From contig NZ_FRDF01000008.1 in NCBI RefSeq assembly GCF_900143235.1, positions 62,001 to 126,000 on the forward strand: DNA of 64,000 bases. Direction: 5' to 3'. Shown piece by piece: positions 40,403 to 43,587 of the stretch (the first letter of the stretch is position 1; each line of letters opens with the position of its first letter). The stretch is from Erythrobacter sanguineus (GTDB lineage: Bacteria; Pseudomonadota; Alphaproteobacteria; Sphingomonadales; Sphingomonadaceae). Made by a program: the position numbers and the translations under genes. The notes below the pieces were generated by a model. It was not told the origin of the DNA. It saw only the letters and a program-made list of their open reading frames with translations, and did not search any database.

Positions 40403-41185
40403 ATGTCTGAAACGTCCCTATCCGAAACGATGGCCGAAGCGGCTCCCGCCACCCAGCCGCTGGGCACCGGACTCGAGGTGATCTCGATCGCCAAGAGCTA
40501 TGACAAGCGCGCGGTGCTATCCGATATTTCGTTCAGCGTCGCCAAGGGCGAGGTGTTCGGCTTGCTCGGCCCCAATGGGGCGGGGAAGACCACCTGCTTC
40601 TATTCGATCATGGGTCTGGTGAAGCCGGATTCGGGCCGCATCCTGATGGATGGCGAGGATGTGACCAAGTTGCCGATGTATCGCCGCGCGATTCTGGGGC
40701 TGGGTTATCTGCCGCAGGAAACCAGCATCTTTCGCGGAATGACGGTGGAACAGAACATCAATTGCGTGCTCGAACTGGTCGAGCCCGATAGCACCACCCG
40801 CGCCGCCGAACTGGAACGCCTGCTCGACGAATTCGGCCTTGCGCGGCTGCGCGAATCGCCCGCGATGGCCCTGTCGGGCGGCGAGCGGCGGCGCTGCGAA
40901 ATTGCCCGCGCGCTGGCGGCCAAGCCTTCGATCATGCTGCTGGATGAACCCTTCGCCGGGATCGATCCACTGTCGATCAGCGACATCCGCGAGCTTGTGC
41001 GCGACCTCAAGGCGCGCGGTATCGGGGTGCTGATCACCGATCACAACGTGCGCGAAACGCTGGATATCGTTGACCGCGCCTGCATCATCTACGGCGGGCA
41101 GGTGCTGTTCGCCGGCAGCCCGCAGGAACTGGTCGCCGACGAGAACGTGCGACGCTTGTATCTCGGCGAGAGCTTCACGCTCTAG
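40403..41185 (+). CDS. lptB: LPS export ABC transporter ATPase LptB
   Basis: LptB powers LPS extraction from the inner membrane with LptF and LptG. The 260-residue ATPase shows Walker A GPNGAGKTT, the signature LSGGERRR, and Walker B IMLLDEPFAG. The GLVKPDSGRI and YLPQETSIFRGMTVEQNI blocks are typical of LptB. rpoN starts nine bases after the stop, as is common in Proteobacteria. The usual upstream partners lptA and lptC are absent here; an unrelated membrane protein lies upstream. Confidence 0.96.
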   Translation: MSETSLSETMAEAAPATQPLGTGLEVISIAKSYDKRAVLSDISFSVAKGEVFGLLGPNGAGKTTCFYSIMGLVKPDSGRILMDGEDVTKLPMYRRAILGLGYLPQETSIFRGMTVEQNINCVLELVEPDSTTRAAELERLLDEFGLARLRESPAMALSGGERRRCEIARALAAKPSIMLLDEPFAGIDPLSISDIRELVRDLKARGIGVLITDHNVRETLDIVDRACIIYGGQVLFAGSPQELVADENVRRLYLGESFTL

Positions 41186-41194
41186 CATACTGGC

Positions 41195-42688
41195 ATGGCT
41201 CTCGGCCCCCGCCTCGATTTACGGCAGACACAATCGCTGGTGATGACGCCGCAATTGCAGCAGGCGATCAAGCTGCTGGCGGCATCGAACCTCGAGATTG
41301 AAAGCTTCATCGCCGAGGCGCTGGACGCCAACCCGCTGCTCGATACCGCGACGCCCGCGCCCGACGAGCCTGAGCGCGGCGAGGTTGCGGTTGCCCTTCC
41401 CGAAGATGCGCCTGCCGACCAGTTGATCGCGCTGGGCGGCGGCGAAGGCGATGCCCCGCTCGATCTCGCCTCGGTCGACCGGGACTGGGACACCGGCGAT
41501 GGCGCGGCGCGCGGTGCCCGCGATGCCGAATGGGGCGCTGCGGCGAGCGCGGGCGGCGATTTCGCCGAACTGCCCGACTGGGAACAGCTGCGCGCCGCCG
41601 AGGTGACGCTGACCGAGCACCTCGACGCCCAGATCGGCACGATGGCAAGCGACCCGCGCACCGGTTTCATCGCGCGCCGCATCATCGGCCTGCTCGACGA
41701 TGCGGGTTATCTCGGCACGCCGATCGACGAGGTGGCGGATGATCTGGGCGTCGATCTGGTCGAGGCCGAAGCCGCGCTGGCGCTGGTGCAATCGCTCGAC
41801 CCCTCCGGCGTGGGCGCGCGCAATCTGGCGGAATGCATCGCCATTCAGGCGCGCGAGGCCGATCGCTATGATCCCTGCATGGCCGCGCTGATCGCCAATC
41901 TCGAACTGGTGGCGCGCGGCGAGGTGGAGCGCCTCAAACGCCTGTGCCGCGTGGATGACGAGGATTTCGCCGACATGCTGCGCGAATTGCGCAGCTATGA
42001 CCCCAAGCCCGGCCTCGCCTTCGCGCCGTCTGCCACCAGCACCGTGGTGCCCGATATCCTCATCAGCGCCAATGCCGCAGGCGGGTGGGACATTGCGCTG
42101 AACGAGGAGACGCTGCCCCGGCTGATCGTCAATCGCGGCTATTTCGTCGAGCTGAGCGGCAATGCCGGGGACAAGGCCGCGCAAGGCTGGCTCAAGGAAA
42201 AACTGGCCGATGCACACTGGCTGATCCGCGCGCTCGACCAACGGCAGAAGACGATCCTGAAAACCGCCGCCGAGATCGTGCGCCAGCAGGACGGGTTCTT
42301 TCGCCGCGGGGTGGCCGAACTGCGTCCGCTGACCTTGCGCGAAGTGGCCGAGAAGATCGAAATGCACGAAAGCACGGTCAGCCGCGTCACCAGCAACAAA
42401 TACCTCGCCTGCGCGCGCGGGACGTTTGAACTGAAATATTTCTTCACCAGCGGGGTCGGATCAGCTGATGGCGAGGGTGCGTCGAGCGCGGCGATCAAGG
42501 CACGGATCAAGGCGCTGATCGATGCCGAGACAGTGAAGAAGATCCTGTCCGACCAGCAACTGGCCGACATGCTGAAGCAGGAAGGCTTCGACCTTGCCCG
42601 GCGCACCGTGGCAAAATACCGCGAGGCGATTGGCCTAGGGTCGAGCGCAGAACGACGGCGCGCCAAGAAGCTGGCAGGGCTGCGTTAG
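41195..42688 (+). CDS. rpoN: RNA polymerase sigma-54 factor
   Basis: Sigma-54 directs enhancer-dependent transcription. The 497-residue protein has the Gln-rich region I (LRQTQSLVMTPQLQQAIKLL) and an acidic region II. The core-binding region follows, and the C-terminal DNA-binding region ends in the RpoN box ARRTVAKYRE. ESTVSRVTSNKYL matches the helix-turn-helix. It lies nine bases after lptB. The stop is at 42688, then ctrA's regulatory region begins. Confidence 0.97.
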   Translation: MALGPRLDLRQTQSLVMTPQLQQAIKLLAASNLEIESFIAEALDANPLLDTATPAPDEPERGEVAVALPEDAPADQLIALGGGEGDAPLDLASVDRDWDTGDGAARGARDAEWGAAASAGGDFAELPDWEQLRAAEVTLTEHLDAQIGTMASDPRTGFIARRIIGLLDDAGYLGTPIDEVADDLGVDLVEAEAALALVQSLDPSGVGARNLAECIAIQAREADRYDPCMAALIANLELVARGEVERLKRLCRVDDEDFADMLRELRSYDPKPGLAFAPSATSTVVPDILISANAAGGWDIALNEETLPRLIVNRGYFVELSGNAGDKAAQGWLKEKLADAHWLIRALDQRQKTILKTAAEIVRQQDGFFRRGVAELRPLTLREVAEKIEMHESTVSRVTSNKYLACARGTFELKYFFTSGVGSADGEGASSAAIKARIKALIDAETVKKILSDQQLADMLKQEGFDLARRTVAKYREAIGLGSSAERRRAKKLAGLR

Positions 42689-42736
42689 GAGTTTTCCCGG
42701 TCAGCCGGGCGGCGCGTAAAGCCAATTTGCCGGCGC

Positions 42737-42808
42737 GAATCCCGCCGCACGCGGGTGTGACTCGAAAGACTCACTCCAAAAAGTTAACGCTCTAAACTTC
42801 TTATTAAC
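42737..42808 (+). promoter_or_regulatory. ctrA control region: three GANTC sites and a near-consensus CtrA box
   Basis: GAATC at 42737-42741, GACTC at 42759-42763 and GACTC at 42768-42772 are CcrM-type methylation sites within 36 bases. TAAA-CTTCTTA-TTAAC (42793-42808) differs by one base from the CtrA consensus TTAA-N7-TTAAC, and a second TTAAC half-site lies at 42784-42788. This is the layout expected for GcrA/CcrM input and CtrA feedback, as known in Caulobacter. Confidence 0.65.
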
Positions 42809-42891
42809 CTTTTTTGGTGAGAAGTGGCGTGGTTAATTCACGGCAACCTCTCCTAAGCAGGGGTTACCAGGGGCAAACAGAGGACCCATTG

Positions 42892-43587
42892 ATGCGTGTG
42901 CTGCTGATCGAAGACGAACCGACCACCGCCAAAGCGATTGAGCTGATGCTTACGACCGAAGGTTTCAATGTCTATTCGACCGACCTCGGCGAAGAGGGCC
43001 TGGATCTGGGCAAGCTGTATGATTACGATATCATCCTGCTCGATCTCAACCTGCCCGACATGCATGGCTATGACGTGCTGAAAAAGCTGCGCGTCGCCAA
43101 GGTGCAGACCCCGGTGCTGATCCTGTCGGGCATTTCGGAAATGGATTCGAAGATCCGCAGCTTCGGTTTCGGCGCTGATGATTACGTGACCAAGCCGTTC
43201 CACCGCGAGGAACTGGTCGCCCGCATCCATGCCGTGGTGCGCCGGTCCAAGGGCCATTCGCAAAGCGTGATCCGCACCGGCAAGCTGGCGGTCAACCTCG
43301 ACGCCAAGACAGTCGAAGTCGATGGCGCCCGCGTGCATCTGACCGGCAAGGAATATGCGATGCTGGAGTTGCTGAGCCTGCGCAAGGGCACGACTCTGAC
43401 CAAGGAAATGTTCCTCAACCACCTTTATGGCGGGATGGACGAACCAGAACTCAAGATCATCGACGTGTTCATCTGCAAGCTTCGCAAGAAGCTGAGCCAT
43501 GCTTGCGGCGGCGAGAATTACATCGAGACCGTGTGGGGCCGTGGCTATGTGCTGCGCGACCCGAACGAGGAAGCCGAAGCGGCGTAA
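42892..43587 (+). CDS. ctrA: Cell-cycle response regulator CtrA
   Basis: CtrA is the OmpR-type master regulator that controls division, motility and, in Caulobacter, origin silencing. The 231-residue product has the receiver with acceptor Asp51 in ILLDLNLPD and the phosphorylation-sensing [12 protein letters not shown]. The winged-helix DNA-binding domain shows [27 protein letters not shown] and [11 protein letters not shown]. The MRVLLIEDE start fits; the 65-base region upstream from 42784 carries the control sites. The C-terminus ends EEAEAA, not a classic AA degron but similar, so ClpXP turnover is possible. Confidence 0.96.

Follow-up and report, generated by a model that had tools for sequence, protein, structure and literature searches.

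The 64,000-nucleotide stretch of Erythrobacter sanguineus DNA considered here (the window, from a genome of 2.98 Mb in 25 contigs) carries the gene for the response regulator CtrA, with rpoN, encoding sigma-54, as its upstream neighbor and lptB before that (Table 1). CtrA is 99% identical in named genomes of Qipengyuania, Erythrobacter, Porphyrobacter and their kin. The region upstream of ctrA is probably its regulatory region and, by analogy with Caulobacter, would hold two overlapping promoters. A consensus sigma-70 promoter or terminator in 42650-42900 is rejected since a consensus scan of that segment found neither, and the candidate -10 elements for the ctrA promoter are weak ones only. 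An RNA element at the promoter is also ruled out, as 42600-43000 is without an Rfam match at gathering threshold. At eight of 90 genus loci (G107, G086, G058, G027, G095, G057, G034 and G028) there is no rpoN match in the fetched DNA 5′ of ctrA, with other neighbors or contig ends found there instead.

Table 1. Features of the ctrA locus, in coordinates of the 64,000-nucleotide window
Feature	Position	Strand	Remarks
lptB	40403-41185		before rpoN
rpoN (sigma-54)	41195-42688	+	upstream neighbor of ctrA; source of the tree
GANTC site 1 (GAATC)	42737-42741	.	fails extended GcrA motif; private to the species among those compared
Conserved pair block, D-type, TGTgactcGAAAgactcAC	42756-42774	.	two GANTC 9 bp apart, near-dyad
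GANTC site 2 (GACTC), accessory member of the pair	42759-42763	.	fails extended GcrA motif
GANTC site 3 (AgactcA), primary	42768-42772	.	fits extended GcrA motif YGAKTCK, minus strand
TTAAC CtrA half-site	42784-42788	+	between GANTC pair and main box; 16 bp after site 3
CtrA box TAAACTTCTTATTAA	42793-42807	+	TTAA-N7-TTAA, one mismatch
Conserved core TTAACC-N21-GGTTAA	42804-42836	+	only genomic place of TTAACC-N19..23-GGTTAA
ctrA, response regulator CtrA, 231 aa	42892-43587	+	NF045991, 426.3 bits (cut-off 350)

The initial annotation was right that three GANTC fall within 36 bases, with starts at 42737, 42759 and 42768. It also held the cluster to be far above chance, reckoning with one GANTC per 300 bases. 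The triple is indeed the single instance in the 64 kb, but the real rate is one per 582 bp (110 in total), and on uniform random placement of 110 sites such a triple arises somewhere in the window in 13% of draws, so that the cluster by itself is modest, suggestive evidence. Dinucleotide shuffles give 270 GANTC, and the window is thus depleted in them. Chance alone is ruled out through conservation and not through the cluster itself; on sequence comparison, it is the conservation of the sites that makes a firm case. Two of the three form a conserved pair, and to that extent the proposed stacking of methylation input stands, but the site at 42737 has a counterpart in none of the 30 other members of the window's clade and is probably incidental. 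The counterpart of site 2 is missing in five genomes (G006, G037, G047, G071 and G074) and that of site 3 in one, G016.

The near-consensus CtrA box that had been annotated beyond the cluster is also there, with its one mismatch. Two such one-mismatch TTAA-N7-TTAA sites occur in the window; the shuffle mean is 1.2 and two or more turn up in 35 of 100 shuffles, so that by itself the box is unremarkable. Most relatives have a CtrA box with 0-1 mismatch at a similar position, and from the likeness to Caulobacter CtrA is predicted to bind the one at 42793-42807. The core of which the window's GGTTAA at 42831 is part, in the form TTAACC-N19..23-GGTTAA, is found in all 96 genus promoters, in 65 of the 79 order-wide ones (window included) and, within the window's genome, only at ctrA; it is in none of 26 class promoters from outside the window's family. 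Several Sphingomonas, Sphingomicrobium and uncultured kin (L068, L070-L072, L077, L078 and L080) have further TTAA-type half-sites 3′ of the core, among them TTAATGGACGCTTAG and CGTTAAG, and these resemble additional CtrA sites. Extra CtrA paralogues in two genus members (L180, L181 and L182, from G077 twice and G086) have a common and differing promoter in which TTAACC is present and the GANTC block absent.

For the comparisons, GANTC were counted in the 60 bp preceding the CtrA box, which served as anchor. The genus set drew on 103 matched genomes of 114, and of the 97 promoters used 96 were anchored (G013 was not). Three paralogue promoters, two from G077 and one from G086, were excluded, both copies in G034 were retained, and G014, G036, G051, G065, G068, G069 and G112 were at first left out for a partial match or nearness to a contig end, in the case of G068 needlessly. 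Two of 80 order-wide loci were dropped, L002 as too short and L038 for want of an anchor, leaving 78 plus the window; L004, L007, L008 and L021 have the same promoter sequence as genus rows and are counted in both sets, and once in a non-redundant set. The latter comprises the 140 promoters left on removal of sequences more than 85% alike, with 174 of 175 promoters entering the count before that step as one does not have the full 60 bp. Of 144 genomes in a class sample 97 matched, and the best-scoring 28 loci were used, of which 26 were kept (G123 was dropped as of the same family and G251 for having no start call; L214 was kept with only 127 bp upstream).

The initial annotation looked to the ctrA upstream regions of the Sphingomonadales for conservation, and it is found: GANTC lies in the 60 bp before the box in 94 of the 96 anchored genus promoters and at 52 of the 78 order-wide loci, leaving 26 without. 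At least one is present in 115 of the 140 non-redundant promoters and at least two in 60. Seven palindromes of equal composition, counted over the same 60 bp as the best control, occur at least once in no more than 58 of 140 promoters, a maximum due to AG.CT, which overlaps AGACTC, and at least twice in no more than three of 140, while the proportions in control 60-mers from the flanks, mostly coding DNA, are 550 and 21 of 7,953. Adjacent GANTC are 8 or 9 bp apart in 47 of 76 cases, and the promoter blocks are conserved while their flanks diverge. Beyond the family, GANTC lies within 250 bp in 19 of the 26 class promoters, and none of the 26 has a pair at 8-9 bp.

The paired sites come in two classes. 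The D-type block, to which the window belongs, is TGTgactcRAAAgactcAC, with its second site 25 bp upstream of the box. The P-type block, GCgactcGYGgagtc, is nearer, its first site being 20 bp upstream of the box. Little sequence is shared between the two beyond GACTC. Two further genomes, outside the counts, also have GANTC in the 60 bp: G068, with a D pair at the window's offsets, and G014, with two GANTC of neither class; G069 and G051, likewise outside, proved too short. TTAAC is at the half-site place in 26 of 37 D-type versus none of 55 P-type promoters. A CRP-like reading of TGTGA..TCACA is dropped, as CRP sites have halves 6 bp apart and here they are 10 bp apart. Nor is GANTC-N4-GANTC clearly a general promoter signature: the genome has nine such places versus five for the reversed pattern, and five of the nine are inside open frames of at least 110 codons.

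The extended GcrA motif reported for Caulobacter, YGAKTCK (PMC7987155), is fitted by 36 of 37 D-type and 53 of 55 P-type primary sites among the non-redundant sequences, with 189 of 609 flank GANTC as background. Partners fit it in nine of 40 cases upstream (D) and two of 27 downstream (P); eight of the nine D partners that fit have AA before the site and resemble shifted primary sites, the remainder being one in 32. Site 3, at 42768, is the only one of the window's three promoter sites to fit, and since 46 of the window's 110 GANTC do so its single match is weak evidence.

A quick rpoN tree gives an idea of how these states have turned over (rpoN was available at 82 of 90 loci, was long enough in 79, and 78 have promoter states). 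GANTC is in the 60 bp in 77 of the 78 genomes, and so its presence can change only once on the tree. Site class, scored as D, P, both or none, changes 14 times on the best tree, and the starred branches alone force seven changes for D and five for P; both blocks are present in six of the 78 genomes. Scored singly, D changes ten times, P ten times, and 'D or P', which holds for 74 of 78 rows, four times. Control palindromes present in 11-55 of the same rows change 9 to 15 times, and two that are sparser, AC.GT in three rows and TG.CA in seven, change three and seven times. The four rows of neither class are G016, G052, G083 and G090, three of which have GANTC elsewhere in the 60 bp. A strict exchange of D for P is unsupported, independent pairs not giving significance (median p 0.25). 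The pattern of presence and class is the one expected if a methylation site were needed and its place were not, and most relatives keeping a site despite repeated shifts of position suggests that the methylation signal matters.

The window's genome encodes CcrM, recognized by a methylase and a RAMA domain, GcrA, with two family stretches in one 234-aa frame, and proteins of the SciP family (DUF1153). CcrM and GcrA are both encoded in all 50 genomes tested, and so whether a site is present bears no relation to the presence of either; the 50 include all 26 loci that are without GANTC though CcrM and GcrA are encoded, and methylation input is thus dispensable. A conserved promoter of the CcrM, GcrA and CtrA kind, as the initial annotation envisaged, is supported: GANTC beside the CtrA box is conserved all through the genus and, exceptions apart, over much of the order as sampled. 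GANTC is methylated in two members of the order: at 99.24% of sites in Zymomonas mobilis (PMC8432527), and in Sphingomonas AAP5, where it far outnumbers every other methylated motif (PMC8067484).

The ccrM leader in the window's genome (L185:480-660 of G000) has a TTTACCGCGTGTTAA box (TTTAC-N6-TTAA) at 582; GACTC follows twice, at 630 and again at 641, immediately 5′ of a likely ATG at 646. Such a leader would fit a closed loop. Neither GANTC nor a CtrA box is present in the 400 bp before gcrA, and there is no CtrA box in the region before sciP. Further upstream in the ccrM leader two GANTC are in the arms of a hairpin-like GAGTCCCCC..GGGGGACTC. Elsewhere in the genome, outside the window and outside listed open frames, are two copies of one GANTC-rich element (L187:1440-1600 and L189:1440-1600, on contigs C7 at about 96690-96850 and C10 at about 102880-103040), with GANTC at the same spacings of 12, 9, 27 and 28 bp; within 100 bp one copy has five sites and the other six, and there is no Rfam match at gathering threshold.

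Control of ctrA by CcrM and GcrA and by CtrA itself, to which the initial annotation appealed, is a well-established circuit in Caulobacter. The P1 promoter there has GANTC at -29 (legend) or -28 (text) and, about 15 bp further on, TTAA at -14 as a CtrA half-site; P2 and P3 are served by a full CtrA box (PMC4287350). The order in the window is alike, with GANTC, a TTAA half-site (here 16 bp on) and a full box before the gene. In contrast to Caulobacter crescentus ctrA, there is a conserved GANTC pair 9 bp apart, half-site and box are within 24 bp, the box has one mismatch, there is no SciP half-motif, and the core TTAACC-N21-GGTTAA is present, as it is in none of the 26 other class promoters. 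There is likeness too to the CGACTC motif of Caulobacter ftsZ and mipZ, in that P-type primary sites are CgactcG and mipZ has a second GANTC nearby (PMC3708114); unlike in those cases the window's pair reads TgactcG and AgactcA and lies before ctrA, and the 8-9 bp spacing is seen over many species.

As the site at 42768, TTAA at 42784 and the box parallel the Caulobacter layout, we infer an upstream promoter dependent on GcrA and shut by CtrA, and one driven from the box. With methylation, the binding of GcrA and CtrA, the timing and the positions of both promoters carried over from Caulobacter, a GcrA promoter timed by methylation, next to a CtrA promoter under autoregulation, is the likely arrangement. 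The upstream, weak sigma-70 promoter would be switched through CcrM methylation of the primary GANTC at 42768, the methylated site being read by GcrA on RNA polymerase, and the accessory partner at 42759, 9 bp off, may widen or strengthen the response. Newly made CtrA would then occupy the TTAAC half-site and the box, shutting the upstream promoter and driving the downstream one from the box.

A more elaborate and tentative proposal, about which there is considerable doubt, has the pair acting as one methylation reader with two sites: once the replication fork has passed, the primary site, of GcrA grade, and its non-consensus partner 8-9 bp off would jointly determine the dose of ctrA or its timing, with sphingomonads rebuilding the input at two alternative positions. 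Retention of the input through such rebuilding would point to selection for some methylation signal rather than for a site at a set place. Counting against the methylation-timed ctrA promoter as such are reports that an unmethylatable ctrA promoter gives no abnormal phenotype in Caulobacter (PMC3973325), that deletion of ctrA in Sphingomonas melonis is without growth defect (PMC8116508) and that in Brevundimonas the extended motif is not seen at GcrA-activated genes (PMC7987155).

Other readings of the sites may also be considered. Binding of the pair by some other protein, through the dyad TGTGAnTC..GAnTCACA or, in P-type promoters, by SciP at GCGACTC, which would shield it from CcrM and leave it hypomethylated, is unlikely. 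In its favor, the middle base of the primary site, free as far as CcrM is concerned, is C in all 37 D-type and in 53 of 55 P-type promoters; GCGAC, a SciP half-motif (PMC4287350), overlaps 45 of 55 P-type primary sites versus a background of six in 609; and in Caulobacter GANTC can be occluded by MucR, and by CtrA at a synthetic promoter where three GANTC overlap two CtrA boxes (PMC5172544). The fixed C is, however, also allowed or demanded by the extended GcrA motif and by the CGACTC motif of Caulobacter ftsZ and mipZ (PMC7987155, PMC3708114), GCGAC is at none of the 37 D-type primary sites and on neither strand of 42700-42895, and the two classes have little beyond GACTC in common.

It is improbable, too, that the GANTC sequence is a -35 promoter element and its methylation incidental. 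If the -10 of P-type promoters were the hexamer at box+6 (26 occurrences in 55 sequences) or at box+7 (11 occurrences), the primary GANTC would be near -38, which is the -35 position, but that assignment is weak as the box is AT-rich and -10-like hexamers are lacking in 25 of the 37 D-type promoters and in 17 of the 55 P-type ones, and a -35 element has no need of a second, paired GANTC. Very improbable is that GANTC are simply commoner in intergenic DNA and shared through descent without regulatory role. The outcome of the uniform placements, the privacy of the site at 42737 and published intergenic enrichment of GANTC (PMC8067484, PMC8116508), with the flank control being mostly coding DNA, speak for such a by-product; the fixed offsets and 8-9 bp spacing, the conserved blocks in divergent flanks, the far fewer equal-composition palindromes in the same 60 bp and the persistence of a site in 77 of 78 genomes despite repeated class changes speak against it.

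Judged by these comparisons, the GANTC block by ctrA is a real conserved promoter element, of a known circuit type and with an architecture that looks novel. The Caulobacter circuit is already published, as are counts of GANTC upstream of ctrA in the Sphingomonadales: PMC8116508 reports 1-5 within 300 bp in all those it examined, and its available part gives no position, pairing, motif class or turnover. In the wider order-wide set used here, window included, 'all' is not supported: GANTC lies within 250 bp in 62 of 79 promoters. A literature search limited largely to open-access papers turned up no account of a pair spaced 8-9 bp, of two classes or of their turnover at ctrA, and the paired architecture and its turnover there look new.

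For the methylation-timed promoter, the roughly hundred species amount to a comparative test of whether coupling of ctrA to replication by methylation is selected outside Caulobacter. Removal of the site in Caulobacter gave no abnormal phenotype (PMC3973325) and loss of ctrA in S. melonis did not impair growth (PMC8116508), yet the relatives considered here retain a site even as its position shifts, and the D-type, P-type, two-block and site-less species are natural material for promoter fusions.
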